Shown here: positions 22,438-33,270 of the stretch, piece by piece
Position numbering within the stretch: position 1 is the first letter of the stretch
How the letters are laid out: every line of letters starts with the position of its first letter
Source: Betaproteobacteria bacterium
Lineage (GTDB): Bacteria > Pseudomonadota > Gammaproteobacteria > Burkholderiales > CAIKXV01
Assembly (NCBI GenBank): GCA_947457885.1
Contig: CANGXU010000022.1
Span: 1-33,270, forward strand
Length of the DNA: 33,270 nucleotides
Direction: 5' to 3'
The notes under the pieces: generated by a model
Database searches by the model: none
The model's input: only the letters and a program-made list of their open reading frames with translations
What the model was told of the DNA's origin: nothing
Program-made: the position numbers and the translations under genes

Positions 22438-23421
22438 ATGCGAAACCCTGTTGCGGCACGTGCTGCCGCCTTCGCGCTGACCGTTTGCGCCAGCCTTCCG
22501 TCCGCTGCGATTGCACAGCCGGCGTGGCCGGTAAAGCCGATACGGGTCGTGATTCCGTTCCCGCCGGGCGGTCCGACCGACATCATCGGACGGGCCGCGG
22601 CGCGCAAGCTCGAAGAAGCCTACGGCCAGGCAGCGGTGATCGAGAACCGGGGCGGCGCAGGCGGAACCATTGGCGCCGAATTCGTCGCCCGCTCCCCGGC
22701 CGACGGCTACACGATGCTGGTCGGCTCGCTGTCGACCCATGGCATCGCGCAGTCGCTGTACCCGAAGCTCGGCTACGACGTCCTCAAGGACTTCCACCAT
22801 GTCACGCTGCTGGCGATGGTCGACAACTTTTTGGTCGTGCATCCCGGCGTGCCCGCGAAGAACCTGAAGGACCTGATCGGGCTGGCGCGCAAGAATCCCG
22901 GCCGGATGAACTACGGGTCGGTCGGCATCGGCGGCGCATCGCACCTGATGGCGGAGATGGTCAACAGCATGGCTGGCATCCGTACCGTCCATGTTCCCTA
23001 CAAGGGCGCGGCACCGGCCACGGCCGCGCTGCTCGGCGGCGAGATCGATTTCCTGCTCAGCGGCATCCCGGCGCTCCTGCCCCACGTGAAGGCCGGCCGG
23101 GTCCGGGCCCTCGCGACGACCCTGGAAAAGCGGTCGCGCCTTGCGCCCGAGGTGCCGACGATGGTCGAGTCCGGCCTGCCGGGCTACGTGGTGAGCACGT
23201 GGTACGTGCTGTCGGCACCGGCGGGTACGCCGCGCGAGATCGTGAACCGCGCGAACAGCGTGGTCGTGAAGGGGCTCAAGGCACCCGACACGGTCGAGAG
23301 CTTCACCCAGATGGGTGCCGAGGCGATGGGCACCACGCCGGAGCAGACCGTCGAGTTCCTGCGCGGCGAACTCGCCAGGTGGGCCAAGGTGGTACGCGAC
23401 TCCGGCGCCAGGCCCGAGTAG
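22438..23421 (+). CDS. Bug-family periplasmic solute-binding receptor 1 (tripartite tricarboxylate transporter type)
   Basis: Extracytoplasmic receptor of 327 aa. A Sec signal peptide covers about residues 1-26 (cleavage after AIA, before QPAWP). The mature protein shows the Bug hallmarks: WPVKPIRVVIPFPPGGPTD, the ENRGGAGG loop, RSPADGYT, and HVPYKGAAPA in the second domain. Members bind carboxylates such as citrate, aromatic acids or amino acids; the ligand here is unknown. No TctA or TctB membrane subunit is in the window. It opens the catabolic operon, behind its promoter and a strong Shine-Dalgarno. A 91-nt gap follows before the SDR gene; I see no terminator in it. Confidence 0.93.
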   Translation: MRNPVAARAAAFALTVCASLPSAAIAQPAWPVKPIRVVIPFPPGGPTDIIGRAAARKLEEAYGQAAVIENRGGAGGTIGAEFVARSPADGYTMLVGSLSTHGIAQSLYPKLGYDVLKDFHHVTLLAMVDNFLVVHPGVPAKNLKDLIGLARKNPGRMNYGSVGIGGASHLMAEMVNSMAGIRTVHVPYKGAAPATAALLGGEIDFLLSGIPALLPHVKAGRVRALATTLEKRSRLAPEVPTMVESGLPGYVVSTWYVLSAPAGTPREIVNRANSVVVKGLKAPDTVESFTQMGAEAMGTTPEQTVEFLRGELARWAKVVRDSGARPE

Positions 23422-23512: not shown

Positions 23513-24424
23513 ATGGGAATGATGGATGGCAAGGTCGTGGTGGTCACCGGCGCCGGTCGCGGCGTCGGTCGCGGCGTGGCGCTGCTGATGGCTGCCGAGG
23601 GCGCGCAGGTGGTGGTGAACGACATCGGCGCGGCGCTCGACGGCTCGGGCGGCGAGCAGACGCCGGCGCAGGAGGTGGTCGACGAGATCGAGGCCGCTGG
23701 CGGCGAGGCCATCGCCAGCTATGACAGCGTGTCCGACTGGAACAGCGCCGAGAAGATCATCCAGTGCGCGCTCGATTCGTTCGGCCGCATCGATGCGGTA
23801 GTGAACAACGCGGGCATCCTGCGCGATGTCATCTTCCACAAGATGACCGAATCCGACTTCGACGCGGTGGTGAACGTGATGCTGAAGGGCTCGTTCAACG
23901 TGTCGCGCCATGCCGCGAACCATTTCCGCAAGCAGGAAGCCGGCGCCTTCGTGCACATGACCTCCACCGCCGGGCTGATCGGCGCGATCGGACAGGCCAA
24001 CTACGCAGCGGCGAAGCTGGGAATCGTCGGGCTGTCGAACAGCATCGCACGCGACATGGAGAAATACCGGGTGCGCTCCAATTGCCTGGCACCCTCGGGC
24101 TGGACGCGGATGATCGCCTCGATCCCGACCGACAACCCGGCGCAGCAAAAACGCGTGGCGCAGCGCATGACGGTGAAGGCGGAGATGAACGCCCCGCTGA
24201 CGGTCTTCCTGTGCAGCGACGCTGCAGCCGAAGTCAGCGGACAGGTGTTTTCGGTGCGCAAGAACGAACTGTTCCTGTTCAGCCAGCACCGGCCCGTGCG
24301 CGGCGTCCACCGCAGCGAAGGCTGGACGCCAGCCACCATCGCCGAACATGCACTGCCCAGCTTCCGACCCAGCCTCACGCCGCTCGAACGGACGGTGAAC
24401 GTGTTCCCGTACGACGCGATCTGA
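23513..24424 (+). CDS. SDR oxidoreductase, MFE-2-type (3R)-hydroxyacyl-CoA dehydrogenase-like
   Basis: A 303-aa short-chain dehydrogenase, about 50 aa longer than a classical SDR. The cofactor motif TGAGRGVG is at 12-19 and NNAG at 98-101. The catalytic residues are S151, Y164 and K168 (NYAAAKLG). The NDIGAALDGSGGEQTPAQEVVDEIEAAGG stretch at 36-64 is typical of the dehydrogenase domain of peroxisomal multifunctional enzyme type 2. Together with the following MaoC-type hydratase it looks like a split MFE-2, which would oxidise (3R)-hydroxyacyl-CoA. A GGGAG site (23501-23505) lies 7 nt before the ATG. The function is inferred from context. Confidence 0.85.
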   Translation: MGMMDGKVVVVTGAGRGVGRGVALLMAAEGAQVVVNDIGAALDGSGGEQTPAQEVVDEIEAAGGEAIASYDSVSDWNSAEKIIQCALDSFGRIDAVVNNAGILRDVIFHKMTESDFDAVVNVMLKGSFNVSRHAANHFRKQEAGAFVHMTSTAGLIGAIGQANYAAAKLGIVGLSNSIARDMEKYRVRSNCLAPSGWTRMIASIPTDNPAQQKRVAQRMTVKAEMNAPLTVFLCSDAAAEVSGQVFSVRKNELFLFSQHRPVRGVHRSEGWTPATIAEHALPSFRPSLTPLERTVNVFPYDAI

Positions 24425-24437
24425 CAGCCTCCCTGCC

Positions 24438-25298
24438 ATGACCATCCACTACGAAACTCTCAAGAACTGGCAGATCCCGGATCTTCCTTTCGAACTGTCG
24501 AAGAAGGACACCATCCTGTATGCGCTGGGGCTCGGCCTCGGCGCTGACCCGATGGACCTCCACCAGTTGCGCTTCGTCTACGAGCAGGGGCTACAGGCGC
24601 TGCCGATGATGTCGGTCGTGCTGTGCCAGCCGATGGGCTGGGCGGGCGACCCGCGCACCGGCGTCGACCGAACGAAGGTGGTCCATGGCGAACAGGGCTT
24701 CCGGCTGCACCGGCCGTTGCCGGCCGAAGCCAGCCTGCGCGGCGAGACGCGCGTGGTCGACGTCATCGACAAGGGTGAAGGCAAGGGCGCGCTGATCCTC
24801 ACCGAGACGCGCATCCTCGATGCGAAGACCGGCGAGTGCATCGCCACTACCGATTCGACCAGCTTCGCCCGGGCCAACGGTGGCTTCGGCGGCCCGTCGG
24901 CGTCGCCGAAGGTGCCGCGTACCCTGCCCGCGCGCGCGCCTGACCTGACCGACGACTGGCCGGTCATCCCCCAGCTCGCCCTCATCTATCGGCTGTCGGG
25001 CGACTACAACCCGCTGCACGCCGATCCGGCGTTCGCCGCGAAGGCTGGCTTCAGCCAGCCCATCCTGCACGGCCGGGCCACTTTCGGCATCGCCGGCATC
25101 GCGCTGCTGCGGCAGCTCTGCGAATGGAACCCGGAGCGGCTGACCGCGATGGAGGCGCGCTTTTCCGCGCCGGTGTATCCGGGCGACACCATCCGCACCG
25201 AGATCTGGCGTGAGGGTGACGAGGTCTTCTTCCGCTGCAGCGTGCCGACGCGCAATGCGGTCGTCCTCAACAACGGCTGGGCCGAGGTTGCGGGATGA
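24438..25298 (+). CDS. MaoC-like hydratase 2 domain protein ((R)-specific enoyl-CoA hydratase)
   Basis: A 286-aa double hot-dog protein, the size of the hydratase 2 unit of MFE-2. The C-terminal half carries the hydratase 2 motif YRLSGDYNPLH with the catalytic D189 and H194, then the PILHGRATFGIAG segment. The N-terminal half is the degenerate hot-dog that binds the acyl chain in this family. It should hydrate trans-2-enoyl-CoA to (3R)-hydroxyacyl-CoA for the neighbouring SDR. It lies 13 nt after the SDR gene and its TGA overlaps the next ATG (ATGA). Confidence 0.9.
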   Translation: MTIHYETLKNWQIPDLPFELSKKDTILYALGLGLGADPMDLHQLRFVYEQGLQALPMMSVVLCQPMGWAGDPRTGVDRTKVVHGEQGFRLHRPLPAEASLRGETRVVDVIDKGEGKGALILTETRILDAKTGECIATTDSTSFARANGGFGGPSASPKVPRTLPARAPDLTDDWPVIPQLALIYRLSGDYNPLHADPAFAAKAGFSQPILHGRATFGIAGIALLRQLCEWNPERLTAMEARFSAPVYPGDTIRTEIWREGDEVFFRCSVPTRNAVVLNNGWAEVAG

Positions 25299-26449
25299 AC
25301 GATGGCGGCGCGGCCGACCAGCGGCGGATGCTGGCCGACAGCGTCGAGGACTATTGCCGCCGATCCGATCCGCTGCGCAGGGCGCGCGCGCTGCGCGATA
25401 CCGATCCCGGGTTCGACCGCGCTGCATGGCAGGCGATGGCCGACCTCGGCTGGACCGGGCTCGTGGTACCCGAAGCCTGCGGCGGGCTGGGGCTGTCGGT
25501 GGCCGAACATGCGATCCTGGCCAGGGGCACGGCGGCCGTGCTGATGCCAGAGCCATTGACCGCAGCGATGATCGCCACGCGCGCGATCGCCGGCTGCGGC
25601 GAGGGTGCGCTGAAGGCTTCCCTGCTGTCGAGCATCGCCTCGGGCGAGATCATCCCTGCCCTTGCCTGGCAGGAGGACGCCGGCGACCTGGACCCGATGA
25701 ACGTCGCCTTGACCGCTTCGCCGCAGCCTGCATCCGACGGTACGGCCCGGGTGTTGCTGCAAGGCGCCAAGCGATTCGTCGTCGGTGCAGCCGGCGCCGA
25801 CGGCTACGTAGTATCGGCGCGCGAGTGCGGGCAGGCAGCGCTCTACTGGGTTCCGGCGACAACAGCCGGTATTCGTCGTGTCGCGCACCGGCTCGCCGAT
25901 GGCCGTCCCGTGGTCGACCTGCAATTCGACGGCGTCGAACTGGAGGCCGATAAACGGCTCGCGCTGGGCGATGGCGCCGTGCGCGCGGTCGCCACAGCCG
26001 TCGACGATGGCAACCTCGCGCTTGCCGCCGAGCTGCTTGGCCTGTCCCGACGCTTGCTGGACGTTACGCTGGACTACCTGCGCACCCGCACGCAGTTCGG
26101 GCGCCCGATCGGCACCTTCCAGGCGTTGCAGCACCGGGCGGTCGATCTCTACATTCACCAGCGCATTGGCGATGCCACGCTCGACCACGCGCTGCGCACG
26201 GCCACGGCGCTGGACGACGGGCAGCTGCGCAGCGCGGCCGCCAGCCGCGCCAAGGCGCGTGCCTGCGAGACCGCCCGGCGAGTCACGCGCGAGGCCGTCC
26301 AGATGCATGGTGCGATCGGCTTCACTGACGACTGCGACGTCGGCCTGTACGTGAAGCGTACGCTGGTACTGTCGGCCTGGCTTGGCAATGCACGGCTGCA
26401 CCGCAGCCGGTATGCGGCGCTGGTGCCGCTGGACGCGGCCGCAGACTGA
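25295..26449 (+). CDS. Acyl-CoA dehydrogenase family protein, likely non-catalytic subunit of a heteromer
   Basis: A 384-aa ACAD-fold flavoprotein. The FAD-contacting motif RTQFGRPIGTFQALQHR is at 265-281, and the C-terminal AVQMHGAIGF matches the family. I find neither usual catalytic base. The helix-G region (AVDDGNLALAAELLG, residues 235-249) has no ER(x) glutamate at the expected spot, and the C-terminal YEGT-type motif is absent. The next gene encodes a second ACAD with the missing glutamate. By analogy with alpha2beta2 ACADs of steroid side-chain degradation (FadE28/FadE29 type), the two probably form one enzyme. The ATG overlaps the MaoC stop. Confidence 0.85.
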   Translation: MNDGGAADQRRMLADSVEDYCRRSDPLRRARALRDTDPGFDRAAWQAMADLGWTGLVVPEACGGLGLSVAEHAILARGTAAVLMPEPLTAAMIATRAIAGCGEGALKASLLSSIASGEIIPALAWQEDAGDLDPMNVALTASPQPASDGTARVLLQGAKRFVVGAAGADGYVVSARECGQAALYWVPATTAGIRRVAHRLADGRPVVDLQFDGVELEADKRLALGDGAVRAVATAVDDGNLALAAELLGLSRRLLDVTLDYLRTRTQFGRPIGTFQALQHRAVDLYIHQRIGDATLDHALRTATALDDGQLRSAAASRAKARACETARRVTREAVQMHGAIGFTDDCDVGLYVKRTLVLSAWLGNARLHRSRYAALVPLDAAAD

Positions 26450-26458
26450 GGACGCCTC

Positions 26459-27643
26459 ATGAACGATCCGCGAAACGATAGCGCCGGCGATACGCGCCTC
26501 GACTGGGACGCACTCGCCGACGAAGTGTTCCGCACGGAGGTGCGTGCCTGGCTGCAGGCCAACTGCCCGGAGCGTGTGCGCTTCCCCGCCGGCCGCATGC
26601 ACTGGCACGAGTGCCGCGACTGGTGGGACATGCTCTACCGCAAGGGCTGGATCGCACCGGCATGGCCGACCGCCCTCGGCGGCATGGGGCTGTCGCCGTT
26701 CAAGCAGATCATCATGGTCGAAGAACTCGAGCGGCACGGTTGCGGCCGCATGCCCGACCAGGGCATCACCCAGGTCGGGCCGATCCTCATCCGTTACGGT
26801 ACGCCGGCCCAGAAGGCGTGGTTCCTGCCGCGCACGTTGTCCGGCGAGGCGATCTGGTGCCAGGGCTACTCCGAACCGAACGCCGGATCAGACCTCGCCA
26901 GCCTGCAGACCACGGCGGTGGAGGATGGCGACGACTACGTGATCGACGGCAGCAAGATCTGGACAACGCTCGCGATGGACGCCACGCACATGTACCTGCT
27001 CGCGCGCACCGACCGCGGCGGGAGGAAGCAGGAAGGCATCAGTTTCCTGCTGCTCGACATGAGGGCACCTGGCATCACCGTGCGGCCGATCCGCAACATC
27101 GCCGGCGACGACGAGTTCTGCCAGGTGTTCTTCGATGGGGTGCGCACGCCGAAGGACAACCTGGTCGGCGTGCCCGGCCAGGGCTGGACGATCGCGAAGT
27201 CGCTGCTCGGCTTCGAGCGGCTCGGTATCGGCAGCCCGCGACGCCCGCAACTGGCGTTCGCGCGCCTCGAGAAGCTGGCGCGCGCCCGCGGGCTGTTCGC
27301 CGATCCGGTGTTCATGGAGCGGTTCACGGCGCTGCGCCTGGACATCGTCGACCTGTCGGCAGCCTACGAGGTGTTCGTCGAGCAGGTCCGCCGCAGCGAG
27401 CGGCTCGGCCCCGACGTCTCGCTGCTCAAGATATGGGCGACCGAGACGATGCAGCGTTGCTCCGAGCTGATGCTTGACGCGGGCGACGAGTACGGCGCGC
27501 TCGGTGGCGACATCGATGTCGATGGCACGCCGATGAACGTGCTCGCACCGTTCTACAGTTCGCGCCCGGGCACCATCTACGGCGGCTCGAACGAGATCCA
27601 GCGCAACATCCTGGCCAAGGCCGTGCTCGGCCTGCCGCAATAG
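26459..27643 (+). CDS. Acyl-CoA dehydrogenase family protein, likely catalytic subunit
   Basis: A 394-aa ACAD with the segment WCQGYSEPNAGSDLASLQT (133-151), which in the family contacts flavin and substrate, and the C-terminal YGGSNEIQRNILAKAVLG. The MCAD-type glutamate position holds Gly (YGGS). The probable base is E253 in LLGFERLGIG, the helix-G position used by isovaleryl-CoA dehydrogenase and heteromeric FadE enzymes. It lies 9 nt after the partner ACAD. It lacks a clear RTQFG motif, which the partner supplies, so the pair appears complementary. Confidence 0.88.
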   Translation: MNDPRNDSAGDTRLDWDALADEVFRTEVRAWLQANCPERVRFPAGRMHWHECRDWWDMLYRKGWIAPAWPTALGGMGLSPFKQIIMVEELERHGCGRMPDQGITQVGPILIRYGTPAQKAWFLPRTLSGEAIWCQGYSEPNAGSDLASLQTTAVEDGDDYVIDGSKIWTTLAMDATHMYLLARTDRGGRKQEGISFLLLDMRAPGITVRPIRNIAGDDEFCQVFFDGVRTPKDNLVGVPGQGWTIAKSLLGFERLGIGSPRRPQLAFARLEKLARARGLFADPVFMERFTALRLDIVDLSAAYEVFVEQVRRSERLGPDVSLLKIWATETMQRCSELMLDAGDEYGALGGDIDVDGTPMNVLAPFYSSRPGTIYGGSNEIQRNILAKAVLGLPQ

Positions 27644-27644
27644 C

Positions 27645-29297
27645 ATGGATACCGCGACCATCCTGGGCAACGTGGTGCAGGTACCCGAACCGGCTTCGGG
27701 CGGCTGGACGCCCGCGAGCTTCGAGCAGGCCCTGGACGCCGCTGCCGTAGGCTGGCCGGCGCAGGAAGCCCTGGTGATCGACGGCGTGCGCTGGACCTTC
27801 GAGCGGCTGCGGCAGGAGGCACGGCGTGTCGCATGTGCGCTGGTCGCGCACGGCGTACGTCGCGGCGACCATGTCGGCATCTGCACCGGCAACCGGGTGG
27901 AATGGGTGGCCTTCTTCCTCGGGGCAGCACTGGCCGGCGCGGTGACCGTTCCGGTCAACACCCGCTTCAAGTCGGACGAACTGCGCTACTGCCTGTCGCA
28001 GGCCGACGTCACCGTGCTCGCGGTGGCCGACCGCTTCCTGAAGGTCGACTTCATCGGCATGCTGCGCGGGATCGAGCCGGCGATCGATGGCGCACTGCCA
28101 GGCACCGCACTGCCACGATTGCGCCATGTCGCGGTACTGGGCGAGGACATCCCGGGTGGCGCCTGCCGATGGGATGACTTCCTCGCCGCGGGCGACGGCC
28201 AGCCGGTGCCGACCGGCCGTGCCGCACCGGATGACGTCGTGCTGATCCAGTACACCTCGGGCAGCACCTCGTTCCCGAAGGGCGTGCAGTTGAGCCACGA
28301 CAACATGCTGCGCAATGCCGATGCGATCGCGCGCCGGATCGGCCTGGGGCCCGGCGAACGCTACTTCAGCGCGCGGCCTTTCTTCCACGTGGCCGGGACC
28401 ACCCTGTCGATCCTGGCCGCGTTGTCGCAGGGCGCGTGCCTCGTATCCACCCCGGTGTTCGACGCAGGTACCTCGCTCGATGCCATCGAGGCCGAGCGCT
28501 GCACCTTCCTGTCCGGCAACGATCCGATGTTCCAGATGATGCTGAGCCACCCGTCGCTGGGGGCGCGGCGGCTCGCGCTGCGCGGCGGCTGGGGGTCGTG
28601 CACGCCGCAGATGATGCAGGCGGCCGAAGAGACCTTCGGCATGGCAATCTGCCACGCCTACGGATTGTCCGAAGCCTCGCCGAACGTCTGCATGTCCGAC
28701 TGGCGCGATCCGCCCGAGAAACGCTGGAACAGCTTCGCGCTTCCGCTGGCTGGCCTGTCGGTGCGCATGGCCGACCCGGAATCGGGCGAGGCGGTGCCGC
28801 CGGGCGCGACCGGGGAGATCCAGGTGCGCGGCTGGAGCCTGATGAAGGGCTACTACGGGATGCCCGAGCAGACTGCGCAGACCTTCACCGCCGACGGATG
28901 GCTGCGTACCGGCGACCTCGGTACCTTCGACGACCAGGGGCGGATGCATTTCATCGGCCGGATCAAGGAGGTGTTCCGCGTCGGCGGCGAGAACGTCGCC
29001 CCGGCCGAGGTGGAAGACCTGCTGCTGCGGCATCCGGCGGTGGCGCAGGCTCAGGTCGTCGGGGTGCCCGACGCCCGCCTGGGCGAGGTGGGTGCCGCCT
29101 ATGTCGTACTCAGGGAAGGTGCGTCGCTGGAGCCATCCGCACTGATCGAATGGACACGCCCGCGCATCGCGGGCTTCAAGGTGCCGCGCTACGCGAAGAT
29201 CGTCGACGGGTTCGAGGCGATCGGAATGACGGCCAGCGTCAAGGTGCAGAAGAACCGGCTGCGCGAACACGCGCTGCGCGATTTCGGGCTGGCCTGA
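27645..29297 (+). CDS. ANL-superfamily acyl-CoA ligase (AMP-forming)
   Basis: A 550-aa CoA ligase that activates a carboxylic acid through an acyl-adenylate. Motifs in order: P-loop YTSGSTSFPKG (203-213), YGLSEASP (339-346), D424 in LRTGDLG, the hinge GRIKE, and the C-terminal catalytic lysine K533 in TASVKVQK, where Val replaces the usual Gly of SGK. The gate residues do not let me name the substrate. It starts 1 nt after the ACAD stop, so the two are tightly coupled. The second ligase at the end of the operon is of a different, NDP-forming family. Confidence 0.9.
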   Translation: MDTATILGNVVQVPEPASGGWTPASFEQALDAAAVGWPAQEALVIDGVRWTFERLRQEARRVACALVAHGVRRGDHVGICTGNRVEWVAFFLGAALAGAVTVPVNTRFKSDELRYCLSQADVTVLAVADRFLKVDFIGMLRGIEPAIDGALPGTALPRLRHVAVLGEDIPGGACRWDDFLAAGDGQPVPTGRAAPDDVVLIQYTSGSTSFPKGVQLSHDNMLRNADAIARRIGLGPGERYFSARPFFHVAGTTLSILAALSQGACLVSTPVFDAGTSLDAIEAERCTFLSGNDPMFQMMLSHPSLGARRLALRGGWGSCTPQMMQAAEETFGMAICHAYGLSEASPNVCMSDWRDPPEKRWNSFALPLAGLSVRMADPESGEAVPPGATGEIQVRGWSLMKGYYGMPEQTAQTFTADGWLRTGDLGTFDDQGRMHFIGRIKEVFRVGGENVAPAEVEDLLLRHPAVAQAQVVGVPDARLGEVGAAYVVLREGASLEPSALIEWTRPRIAGFKVPRYAKIVDGFEAIGMTASVKVQKNRLREHALRDFGLA

Positions 29298-29332: not shown

Positions 29333-30103
29333 ATGACGGTACGGATGGAACAATCGGATGGCATCGCGACGCTCACGCTCGACCGCCCCGACAAGCTCAA
29401 TGCGATGTCCGACGAGATGTACGACCTGCTGCACGATCACGCGCACCAGCTGTCGGCGGACCCGGCGGTGCGCGCGATCATCCTGACTGGCAGCGGCAAG
29501 GGTTTCTGCTCAGGGGGCGACATCGGCAACATGGCGAAGACCGATCTCACCGGCTCGCGCGCACGGTCGAAGTCGCGCCATCGCACCTTCCTCGCGCTGG
29601 CCGCGATCGAGAAACCGGTGATCGCCGCGGTGCACGGCCCGGTCTACGGCATCGGCACCAGCCTGATGTTCGCCTGCGACCTGATCGTGGCCGCGCAGAG
29701 CACGACGCTGGCCTTGTCGTTCAAGCGCGTCGGCGTGGTACCCGATGGCGGCGCGATCTTCTTCCTGTCGCAGTACCTGGGCATCGCCAAGGCGAAGGAA
29801 CTGGTCTACACCGGACGCAAGGTCGGCGCAGATGAACTCGCGGCGCTGAACATCGCGATGAAGGTGGTGCCCGACGCCGCGCTGCAGGCCGAGGCCCGGG
29901 CGCTGGCGGCCGAGATGGCGGCGTCTGCGACGTGGATGCTCGGTCTCACCAAGAAGATGTTCCAGTTCATGTACACGCCGACCCTGGAACAGCTGCTCGA
30001 CTACGAGGCGCTGATGCAGACGCACGTTCGCCTCTCCGAGGACCACAAGGAAGGGGTGGCGGCGTTCAAGGAAAAGCGCGCGCCGCGCTTCCAGGGACGC
30101 TGA
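29333..30103 (+). CDS. Crotonase-family protein, PaaG/isomerase-like
   Basis: A 256-aa crotonase. The oxyanion-hole elements are CSGGD (59-63) and GPVYGIG (102-108). Neither hydratase glutamate is present: the first position is Ser in GIGTSLMFACD and the second is replaced in LSFKRVGVVPDGG. D138 in VVPDGG matches the acid used by PaaG and related isomerases. So a double-bond isomerase role is more likely than a hydratase role; this is inferred from residues only. An AAGGA site (29322-29326) lies 6 nt before the ATG, 35 nt after the ligase. Confidence 0.85.
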   Translation: MTVRMEQSDGIATLTLDRPDKLNAMSDEMYDLLHDHAHQLSADPAVRAIILTGSGKGFCSGGDIGNMAKTDLTGSRARSKSRHRTFLALAAIEKPVIAAVHGPVYGIGTSLMFACDLIVAAQSTTLALSFKRVGVVPDGGAIFFLSQYLGIAKAKELVYTGRKVGADELAALNIAMKVVPDAALQAEARALAAEMAASATWMLGLTKKMFQFMYTPTLEQLLDYEALMQTHVRLSEDHKEGVAAFKEKRAPRFQGR

Positions 30104-30106
30104 GCG

Positions 30107-30847
30107 ATGGGCACGGATGTCCTGCTCGTCGAGACCCGAGGCGCGGTCCGGCTGCTCACGCTGAACCGCCCCGACAAGCTCAACGCGATGAACACGGTAC
30201 TGATCGAAGCGCTGATCGCCGCGTTGCAGTCGGCCGACGCGGACGAGGCGATCGGTGCGATCGTCCTGGCCGGTGCCGGTCGCGCCTTCTCGGCGGGCGC
30301 CGACATGGCGGAGTTCAGGGATGTCCCGCCCGGGGAACGCCTGGGCGTCGAACGGCGCAGCGCCCTCACCGCCTCGCTCCAGCTGCTGCTGCCCGGCCTT
30401 GCAAAGCCGGTGGTCGCCGCTACCCGGGGCCACGTGCTCGGCGGTGGCTGCGCGCTCGCGATTGCCTGCGACATGGTGGTGGCTGCCCGCAGCTCCCGTT
30501 TCGGCTATCCCGAGGTCAGGCGGGGCATCCTGGCCGCGTCGGTGACGCCGAACCTGGCGCGCCAGGTGGGCACCAAGGCCGCGTTCGAACTGCTCGCCAC
30601 CGGACGCTCGATCGAGCCTGCGCGTGCGCTCGAACTCGGCCTGATCAACCAGGTGGTCGAAGACGGTGCAGAAGTGGACGCGGCGCTGGCGCTCGCGGCC
30701 GAACTGGCAGCGCTGCCCGGGCCTGCGCTGCAGGCGACCAAGCGCCTTTTCTATCGCGCGCTCGACGCCGAGTTCGCGCGGGCGATGCAGCTCGCGCACG
30801 AGTCCCACGCCGAGTTGCATGCCGCGACCCGGCGCCCTGCCGACTGA
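30107..30847 (+). CDS. Crotonase-family enoyl-CoA hydratase/isomerase with one catalytic Glu
   Basis: A 246-aa crotonase starting 3 nt after the previous one. The oxyanion elements are FSAGADM (61-67) and GHVLGGG (108-114). The first glutamate of hydratases is Ala here (GGGCALAIACD, A116), while the second is kept as E136 in YPEVRRGI. One-glutamate crotonases include isomerases and other CoA-thioester enzymes, so standard hydration is uncertain. Its sequence differs enough from its neighbour that the two are not a recent duplication. Confidence 0.85.
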   Translation: MGTDVLLVETRGAVRLLTLNRPDKLNAMNTVLIEALIAALQSADADEAIGAIVLAGAGRAFSAGADMAEFRDVPPGERLGVERRSALTASLQLLLPGLAKPVVAATRGHVLGGGCALAIACDMVVAARSSRFGYPEVRRGILAASVTPNLARQVGTKAAFELLATGRSIEPARALELGLINQVVEDGAEVDAALALAAELAALPGPALQATKRLFYRALDAEFARAMQLAHESHAELHAATRRPAD

Positions 30848-30870: not shown

Positions 30871-31872
30871 ATGAACCCGACATCGAAGACCCTTCCATTC
30901 ATCGCCGCGCTCGGCGCGGCGTCATTGCTGGCGATGCCCGTGGCGCTGGCGCAGGCGCCCAGGAGCGGCGGCGACGACTGGCCCGCGCGGCCGGTTCGCT
31001 TCATCGTGCCTTTTGCACCGGGCGCGGCGAACGATCTCATCGCGCGTGCGGTCGGCTCGAAGCTGGCCGATATCTGGGGCCAGAGCGTCCTGGTCGACAA
31101 CCGTCCGGGCGGTGGCACGGTGATCGGCAGCGACCTGGTCGCCCGATCGCCCGCCGACGGCTACACGCTGCTGCAGATCGGCCTGGCGCATGCCGTCAAC
31201 CCGAGCGTGATCGCGAAGCTGCCCTACGATTCGCTGCGCGACTTCACGATGGTCGCGCAGACGGGCGAGTCGCCGTTCGTCATGGTCTCGAACGTGTCGC
31301 TGCCGGTGAAGAACGTGCGCGAACTGGTTGCCATGGCCAAGGCGAAGCCGGGCACGCTCGCCTACGGGTCGACCGGCTCCGGCGGCACCTCGCACCTGAT
31401 GGGCGAACTCCTCAAGAGCATGGCCGGCATCGACGTGATCCACGTTCCCTACAAGGGATTGTCGCCGGCACTGACCGAGGTGATCGGTGGCCAGATCCAG
31501 TACAGCTTCGGCAGCTGGTCGACCGTGGGCCCGTTCGTGAAGGCAGGCAAGCTGCGCGCCCTCGCTGTGACCAGCGCGAAGCGCAGCCCGGTCACGCCCG
31601 ACCTGCCGACGATCGCCGAAGAAGGGTTCAAGGGCTACGATGCGACGCCGTGGTGGGGCATCGCCGGCCCCGGGGGGATCCCGCGTCCGCTGCTCGCCCG
31701 CATCAACTTCGGTGTGCGCACCGCGATGGCCTCGCCCGAAATGAAGGAACGCTTCGCCATCCAGGGTATCGAGATCGCTACCGGGACTTCGGAGGCATTC
31801 CTGGCGCTGGTAAAGTCGGAGATCGACCGCTGGGCGAAGATCGTCAAGACGGCCGGCATCAAGGCGGACTGA
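30871..31872 (+). CDS. Bug-family periplasmic solute-binding receptor 2
   Basis: A 333-aa receptor with a Sec signal peptide of about 27 residues (ALA, then QAPRSGG). Family marks are WPARPVRFIVPFAPGAANDLIAR, DNRPGGGT, RSPADGYT and HVPYKGLSPA. It differs clearly from receptor 1 (FAPGAAND versus FPPGGPTD at the ligand loop), so the two may bind different ligands or conformers. GAGGA (30858-30862) is 8 nt before the ATG. It sits between crotonase 2 and the NDP-forming ligase, inside the operon rather than at its edge. Confidence 0.93.
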   Translation: MNPTSKTLPFIAALGAASLLAMPVALAQAPRSGGDDWPARPVRFIVPFAPGAANDLIARAVGSKLADIWGQSVLVDNRPGGGTVIGSDLVARSPADGYTLLQIGLAHAVNPSVIAKLPYDSLRDFTMVAQTGESPFVMVSNVSLPVKNVRELVAMAKAKPGTLAYGSTGSGGTSHLMGELLKSMAGIDVIHVPYKGLSPALTEVIGGQIQYSFGSWSTVGPFVKAGKLRALAVTSAKRSPVTPDLPTIAEEGFKGYDATPWWGIAGPGGIPRPLLARINFGVRTAMASPEMKERFAIQGIEIATGTSEAFLALVKSEIDRWAKIVKTAGIKAD

Positions 31873-31873
31873 C

Positions 31874-33270
31874 ATGACGGTGGATTTCGCCCGGCTGATC
31901 GAGCCACGCGGCGTTGCGGTGATCGGCGCCACCGAGGACGCGCGCAAGATCGGCGGCCAGCCGATGCGGTTCCTGACCGAGTTCGGTTACGAAGGCGCTG
32001 TCTATCCGGTGAACCCGCGCTACCAGACAGTGCGCGGGCTGCGCTGTTACGCCAGTGCCGCCGAGTTGCCCCAGCCGTGCGACATCGGGCTGATCGCCGT
32101 GCCGGGCGCTTCGGTGCCGCAGGCTATCCGCGACCTTGGTCGCGCAGGCGTGCCCCACGCAATCGTGCTGTCTGCAGGCTTTCGCGAGCTCGGCGAGCGT
32201 GGTATGGGCCTCCAGCGCGAACTCGACAGCGCGCTGGCGGACACGGGTATCCGGATCATCGGTCCGAACTGCCAGGGCGTGATGAACCTGCGCGCGCGTG
32301 CCTACCTGGGCTTTGGCCACTCGTTCGCCAATCCCGCGCTGAAGGCGGGGCCGGTCTCGATGGTCACGCAGAGCGGTGGCTTCGGCTATTCGGTGGTTTC
32401 CGCCGCGCAGCGCGAGGGCATCGGTTTCAGCTATGTGTTCTCGACCGGCAACGAGGCCAACATAAGTTCCCTCGAAATGATGGCCTGCCTGATCGAGCGG
32501 CCGGAGGTCGAGGTGCTGGTGACCTACATGGAGGGCCTGACCGATGGCCGCGCGCTGCTCGCGCTGGGCGAACGCGCGCTGCAGCTGCGCAAGCCCATCC
32601 TCGTCTGGAAGGTCGGGAACACCGCTGCCGGGCAGCGCGCGGTGGCCTCGCATACCGCCAACCTGACCGCGAGCGCCGAACTTTACCGCGCGGCGTTCGA
32701 ACGCGGAGGCTTCGTGCAGATCCGCGATATCGACGACCTGATCGATACGCTGCACGTCTTCCTCGGCGGCCGCTTGCCCAAGGGCAAGGGCGTGACCATC
32801 CTGACCACCTCCGGTGGCGCAGGCGTGCTGATGGCGGACCGCTGCGAGGAAGCCGGGCTGGAACTGCCGCTGCCCGGCCAGGCGTCGATCGATGCGATAC
32901 GGCCGGTCGCTCCAGACTTCGCGTCGCTCGGGAATCCGGTCGACGTGACCGCGCATTTCTCCGCGGCCTGGAAGGAATACAACCAGATCATCCGTACGCT
33001 GCTCGCCGACCCGTCCGTCGACATGCTGATCCCGCGCTCGATCGGCGGCGCCAATGCCGAGCCCTGGTGCGCCGAACTGCTCGAGATCCTGAAGGGCACC
33101 GACAAGCCGGTGATCATCAGCCAGAACGAACCGCCCGAGCGCATCCAGTCGATGATCGCGATGCTGCGGGCGGCGCGGGTGCCGCTGATATCGACGCCGG
33201 CGCGCTGCGCGGTCGCGGCCGGGGCGCTGTCAGGCTTCGCCGCGCGGCTGAGGGCGCACGCCTTGCGCCC
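31874..33270 (+). CDS. NDP-forming acyl-CoA synthetase (acetate-CoA ligase family, partial)
   Basis: Acyl-CoA synthetase of the ADP/GDP-forming superfamily that contains succinyl-CoA synthetase; 465 residues are visible and the frame is still open at the window edge. Full-length members have about 700 aa. The N-terminal CoA-binding domain has RGVAVIGATED (12-22), then IIGPNCQGV (128-136) and TQSGGFG. The phosphohistidine is probably H260 in ASHTANLTAS. The ATP-grasp half lies outside the window if it is present. It begins 1 nt after the Bug receptor 2 stop. Its presence beside an AMP-forming ligase means that two activation routes exist in one operon. Confidence 0.88.
   Translation, partial: MTVDFARLIEPRGVAVIGATEDARKIGGQPMRFLTEFGYEGAVYPVNPRYQTVRGLRCYASAAELPQPCDIGLIAVPGASVPQAIRDLGRAGVPHAIVLSAGFRELGERGMGLQRELDSALADTGIRIIGPNCQGVMNLRARAYLGFGHSFANPALKAGPVSMVTQSGGFGYSVVSAAQREGIGFSYVFSTGNEANISSLEMMACLIERPEVEVLVTYMEGLTDGRALLALGERALQLRKPILVWKVGNTAAGQRAVASHTANLTASAELYRAAFERGGFVQIRDIDDLIDTLHVFLGGRLPKGKGVTILTTSGGAGVLMADRCEEAGLELPLPGQASIDAIRPVAPDFASLGNPVDVTAHFSAAWKEYNQIIRTLLADPSVDMLIPRSIGGANAEPWCAELLEILKGTDKPVIISQNEPPERIQSMIAMLRAARVPLISTPARCAVAAGALSGFAARLRAHALR

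Follow-up and report, generated by a model that had tools for sequence, protein, structure and literature searches.

The two adjacent ACAD genes at positions 25295-27643, here called ACAD1 and ACAD2, very probably encode the beta and alpha subunits of one alpha2beta2 acyl-CoA dehydrogenase, because catalytic and flavin-binding motifs are partitioned between them, the genes adjoin each other, two fusions of such genes occur, the alpha and beta trees match and the best matches of the two proteins are the alpha and beta chains of solved heterotetramers. An earlier note on this DNA had proposed such an enzyme from the half-sites, and the sequence comparisons described here strongly support that reading.

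Two adjacent ACAD genes with complementary motifs

The window, i.e. the whole stretch of 33,270 nucleotides that was analysed, is contig C22 of a draft genome (4.03 Mb, 289 contigs) whose nearest named relatives are metagenome-assembled Burkholderiales/Betaproteobacteria. The operon runs on the + strand in the order Bug1, SDR, MaoC, ACAD1, ACAD2, AMP-ligase, ECH1, ECH2, Bug2, and ends with an incomplete gene for an ADP-forming-type ligase. MaoC extends 4 nt into ACAD1, the ACAD1 stop lies 9 nt before the ACAD2 start and the ligase starts right behind the ACAD2 stop, which suggests co-transcription and translational coupling. The features are as follows.

22438..23421, + strand: Bug/TctC periplasmic binding protein 1 (PF03401), first gene of the operon and conserved in the genus
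23513..24424, + strand: SDR, probable 3-hydroxyacyl-CoA dehydrogenase (PF00106), 58% identity to the SDRs of the P. aeruginosa and Polaromonas clusters
24438..25298, + strand: MaoC / MFE-2-type enoyl-CoA hydratase 2 (PF01575, PF22622), overlapping ACAD1
25295..26449, + strand: ACAD1, predicted beta (small, non-catalytic) subunit, 384 aa, from the motif map; best PDB match the beta chain Tcur3481; TIGR03203 pimD_small below cut-off
26087..26101, + strand: RTQFG codons of ACAD1 (residues 265-269), predicted contact to the partner's FAD
26459..27643, + strand: ACAD2, predicted alpha (catalytic, FAD- and substrate-binding) subunit, 394 aa, from the motif map; best PDB matches the alpha chains Tcur3483 and ChsE4; TIGR03204 pimC_large below cut-off
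27215..27217, + strand: codon of the putative catalytic Glu253 of ACAD2, helix G position
27645..29297, + strand: AMP-forming acyl-CoA ligase (PF00501)
29333..30103, + strand: enoyl-CoA hydratase/isomerase 1 (PF00378)
30107..30847, + strand: enoyl-CoA hydratase/isomerase 2 (PF00378)
30871..31872, + strand: Bug/TctC periplasmic binding protein 2 (PF03401)
31874..33268, + strand: ADP-forming-type acyl-CoA ligase (TIGR02717 below cut-off), interrupted by the contig end; full length in the relatives L043, L045 and L047 (702-714 aa)

ACAD1 and ACAD2 were placed in one alignment together with their relatives, the other ACADs of the same genome and homotetrameric ACADs of solved structure. In homotetrameric ACADs such as MCAD, the RTQFG and QMHG segments reach the FAD of the neighbouring subunit. 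ACAD1 carries both segments (residues 265-269 and 336-339) and is devoid of Glu at the helix-G position (VDDGN) as well as at the position of MCAD E376 (AWLGN). Its FAD loop reads QEDAGDLD instead of the pattern [ST]EPxAG[ST]D and is thus lost, and the Pfam middle domain PF02770 was not matched. In ACAD2, a YSEPNAGSD FAD loop starts at residue 137 and WTT at residue 168, and E253 in LLGFERLG aligns with Glu247 of ChsE4 in a HMMER alignment; RTQFG and QxHG are absent from its aligned sequence, and the residue at the MCAD E376 position is Gly. The open reading frames lie as originally given, and the alignment bears out what had been noticed by eye, namely an RTQFG segment and no catalytic Glu in the first protein, a candidate base and no RTQFG in the second.

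The same complementary half-sites recur throughout the relatives. The catalytic Glu together with the FAD loop was found in all 50 alpha sequences and in none of the 48 beta sequences; RxQF was present in 48/48 beta sequences and in no alpha sequence, except for a single gapped match by chance in Roseibium (RGAFD, picked up by the regular expression for RxxF). In the homotetrameric controls of the same alignment, the flavin-loop and RxQF features occur together in one chain. Neither ACAD1 nor ACAD2 unites all catalytic and FAD motifs in a single chain as a homotetrameric ACAD does. Since the split is repeated in every alpha and beta sequence, it is, as judged from the alignment, far beyond chance. 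An alpha-like ACAD at L111:2191-3426 (- strand), adjoining a beta-like gene, has RxQF, SEP and QxHG in addition to Glu, and is possibly of homotetrameric type or an intermediate form.

The Arg of the GRMPD segment of ACAD2 (residues 96-101) was also considered as a possible carboxylate-binding residue, as it lies near what we take to be the place of Arg94 of glutaryl-CoA dehydrogenase. It is found in most but not all members of the clade of the window pair, and was dropped as too weak.

Pairing, gene fusions and solved heterotetramers

The alpha and beta genes are adjacent in every locus of the window clade that is long enough to show both. In a phylum-wide sample of 20 loci with a PimD-like beta subunit, a separate alpha gene adjoins the beta gene in 19; the remaining locus is a fusion. 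Two fused frames were found: L055:8846-11386, from the order of the window's genome, is a single frame of 847 aa with beta preceding alpha, and L101:2023-4407 is a single frame of 795 aa with alpha preceding beta. Their opposite orders indicate at least two independent fusion events. Furthermore, the same three main proteobacterial clades appear in the alpha and the beta tree, and in relatives from the genus the pair sits within the same operon with conserved gene order, the L050 lineage being without the AMP-ligase and one ECH. Neighbouring genes are also shared with the clusters of P. aeruginosa and Polaromonas.

Each chain is nearest to the corresponding chain of a solved heterotetramer. 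Among PDB sequences, ACAD2 matched Tcur3483 (2e-47) and ChsE4 (2e-46) best, and ACAD1 matched Tcur3481 (7.5e-25; by profile 1.9e-64). Foldseek returned Tcur3481 chains at the top for the beta model and Tcur3483 chains, followed by ChsE4 chains, for the alpha model. The single-chain model of alpha is moderate (pLDDT 81), with low values at residues 139-148 and 370-394. These low values at the FAD loop and the C-terminus were not used as a sign of a missing partner or cofactor, as alignment depth could explain them too.

Like members of the ChsE-type family of heterotetrameric ACADs, the window encodes adjacent ACADs with Glu in just one of them and with the FAD-site residues split across the chains, and, within the reach of sequence comparison, the pair's membership in this family is supported. 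The motif partition, the pairing, the fusions and the operon are read directly from the genes; the quaternary structure, FAD count and activity of the enzyme we infer. The heterotetramer would hold two FADs and two active sites. ACAD2 would bind the isoalloxazine and the acyl-CoA, and its Glu253 would remove the alpha proton, while ACAD1 would be catalytically dead and secure the other end of the FAD of ACAD2 by RTQFG and QMHG. In the solved complexes the isoalloxazine, Glu and substrate are on alpha and the ADP-ribose part is on beta (PMC11153573).

Several ACADs are common in catabolic operons, and in Polaromonas (L076) further ACADs stand beside the pair, which would suit two independent homotetrameric dehydrogenases with unusual active sites that act in successive steps. 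We consider this hardly credible: ACAD1 and all its relatives have neither a Glu at the two known positions nor the FAD loop, ACAD2 and all its relatives are likewise without RTQFG/QxHG, and the two fusions and the strict pairing favour one enzyme. ACAD2 might instead work alone as a homo-oligomer and ACAD1 be a decaying or moonlighting relic. The beta chain does evolve faster than alpha, with about 70% as against 87% identity to the same relatives (window 25295-27643 compared with L045, L046 and L047). However, R265, Q267, F268, H338 and G339 do not vary among beta chains of 29-95% identity to ACAD1, the ACAD1 frame is intact over its 384 aa, and ACAD2 is devoid of the flavin-bridging segments of a homotetramer, making a relic very improbable. 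As beta diverges faster than alpha, its role within the alpha2beta2 enzyme may be looser than in ChsE4-ChsE5.

Subfamily, operon context and candidate substrates

The best NCBIfam matches of ACAD1 and ACAD2 were TIGR03203 (165.7 bits, cut-off 652.7) and TIGR03204 (269.3 bits, cut-off 623.85), so by the curated cut-offs the pair is not PimCD. The trees agree with this, as the window clade stands apart from L092 and L093, the loci whose beta subunits exceed the PimD cut-off. It is well supported (alpha 100/99, beta 100/96), distinct from PimCD and from ChsE4/Tcur3483, and includes pairs from Polaromonas JS666, Variovorax, Roseibium and P. aeruginosa plasmid records. The pair does not score as IpdE1-IpdE2 either (beta NF050027 130.5, cut-off 450). 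A search for IpdE2 across the phylum returned no match anywhere; controls were likewise silent, and the search thus has no bearing on absence. Of 249 genomes taken from throughout the phylum, 46 have a PimD-like beta subunit at E up to 1e-60. The metagenome record L044 bears the label Bordetella parapertussis, but its ACAD2 is 94% identical to that of the window and, in the alpha tree, groups with the genus of the window; the label looks wrong.

In relatives from the genus, the cluster extends past the ADP-forming-type ligase into a DUF35 OB-fold protein and an SCP-x-like thiolase, and the window ends before both. Because of this continuation, the cassette is predicted to encode activation, dehydrogenation, hydration, 3-hydroxyacyl dehydrogenation and thiolysis. 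ACAD1 and ACAD2 would catalyse the first (alpha,beta-dehydrogenation) step of the beta-oxidation operon, following the acyl-CoA ligases and followed by the MaoC or ECH hydratase and the SDR as 3-hydroxyacyl-CoA dehydrogenase; in the relatives, the pathway would end with the DUF35 protein and the thiolase.

A P. aeruginosa record carries the same set, with identities of 55% for alpha, 34% for beta, 58% for the SDR, 50% for MaoC, 33% for ECH, 37% for the ligase and 58% for the thiolase (compared with that of the relatives), and DUF35 is present too. This cluster, for which our literature search found no assigned function, presumably corresponds to the PA1015-PA1024 region of PAO1, where the ligase reportedly bears the name pimeloyl-CoA synthetase (pauA); we take this as a lead. 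Downstream of the operon in L072, L073 and L074, translations inspected by eye showed frames resembling an amidase, a Gfo/Idh-like oxidoreductase, an aconitase-X-like large/small pair and another TctC-like gene.

Transport genes vary by cluster: Bug in the window, DcaP in Polaromonas, and MFS with an OprD-type porin in P. aeruginosa. TctC/Bug binding proteins are extremely expanded in the window's genome, with at least 150 genes (the best 150 of 357 candidates). A nearby Bug gene is therefore expected and weakly informative, and we reject the Bug link that the earlier note had taken as a clue to the substrate. Its further suggestion, that a heterotetramer points to a bulky or branched CoA substrate, does not follow, because PimCD-like pairs serve straight-chain dicarboxylates; the nearest characterised proteobacterial relatives, which are of the PimCD type, act on linear dicarboxylyl-CoAs.

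Two other proposals leave the heterotetramer in place and concern its substrate alone. The pair could be an equivalent of PimCD that oxidises pimeloyl-CoA or longer dicarboxylyl-CoAs, as the best profile matches and the C8-C12 dicarboxylates served by beta-proteobacterial PimCD-like pairs (PMC12543098) would suggest. We regard this as unlikely given the scores far short of the curated cut-offs, the well-supported separate clades in both trees and the other neighbours. A bulky or branched acyl-CoA, such as that of a steroid or terpenoid, would agree with the steroid enzymes being the best solved relatives and with the DUF35 and SCP-x-like thiolase pair of the relatives, which belongs to the superfamily of the steroid aldolase Ltp2-ChsH2. 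Yet the argument from PDB matches is biased, solved heteromers of this kind being mostly steroid enzymes, ChsE4 and Tcur3483 lie outside the proteobacterial alpha clade, and no steroid-ring genes were recognised in the operon or the flanks read. A bulky substrate is therefore improbable as well. No report of the substrate of the window pair's subfamily was found; our guess, weakly held, is an imported medium-chain or alicyclic (di)carboxylate. We tentatively suggest that the window clade may be a separate, biochemically undescribed split-ACAD subfamily that acts on a substrate class new to heterotetrameric ACADs. It would form the centre of a mobile beta-oxidation cassette (ACAD-alpha/beta, MaoC, SDR, DUF35, thiolase, CoA ligase), present whole or in part in freshwater Burkholderiales, on Polaromonas and Roseibium plasmids and on a Pseudomonas aeruginosa plasmid.

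Relation to known split ACADs

Split ACADs have mostly been discussed as steroid enzymes. ChsE4-ChsE5 (FadE26-FadE27) of M. tuberculosis (PDB 4x28) has the same division of labour, with Glu247 matching E253, but it is actinobacterial, acts on the cholesterol side chain, falls outside the proteobacterial clade and is 26-30% identical to the window pair in the Foldseek alignment. The steroid ACAD Tcur3481-Tcur3483 (PDB 6wy8/6wy9) gives the best sequence and fold matches for both subunits, at 29-30% identity; it belongs to Actinobacteria and acts on a bile-acid side chain. PimCD, the pimeloyl-CoA dehydrogenase of Rhodopseudomonas palustris (TIGR03204/TIGR03203), is likewise made of adjacent alpha and beta ACADs in a proteobacterial beta-oxidation operon, and the PimCD-type loci L092 and L093 show the motif split of the window pair. 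It differs from that pair in clade, profile scores and neighbours, and beta precedes alpha in the window, whereas alpha precedes beta in the loci that exceed the PimD cut-off.

The adjacent genes of Scd1AB from Pseudomonas stutzeri Chol1 have been proposed to form an alpha2beta2 enzyme, and ScdC1/ScdC2 of Comamonas and the fused CasC are described in the same review (PMC8399759). By these descriptions, Scd1AB and ScdC1/ScdC2 are proteobacterial adjacent pairs like that of the window, but in steroid gene clusters. CasC of Rhodococcus jostii RHA1, a fused two-domain ACAD, follows the half-site principle in one chain, whereas the window has two separate genes in a family that includes fusions (L055, L101). 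A 2025 fitness study of beta-proteobacteria identified an adjacent ACAD pair akin to PimCD and ChsE1-ChsE2 that is required for C8-C12 dicarboxylates, and suggested a heterotetramer (PMC12543098). This pair, Ralstonia ABZR87_RS14790/RS14795 with its homologues, resembles that of the window in arrangement and, by description, is nearer to PimCD and set apart by its dicarboxylate phenotype. Since PimCD, Scd1AB, ScdC1/ScdC2 and the Ralstonia pair came before, a proteobacterial version is not new; the split two-gene arrangement is already known and common in Proteobacteria.

The window pair is a further member of this known kind, from a subfamily for which we found no reported substrate, and gives further evidence from sequence that split ACADs occur widely in Proteobacteria and have been fused into one chain at least twice. 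Such pairs become easy to annotate correctly. The finding also carries a warning for annotation, as an ACAD in an operon that is devoid of the catalytic Glu is probably a structural partner and not a pseudogene.
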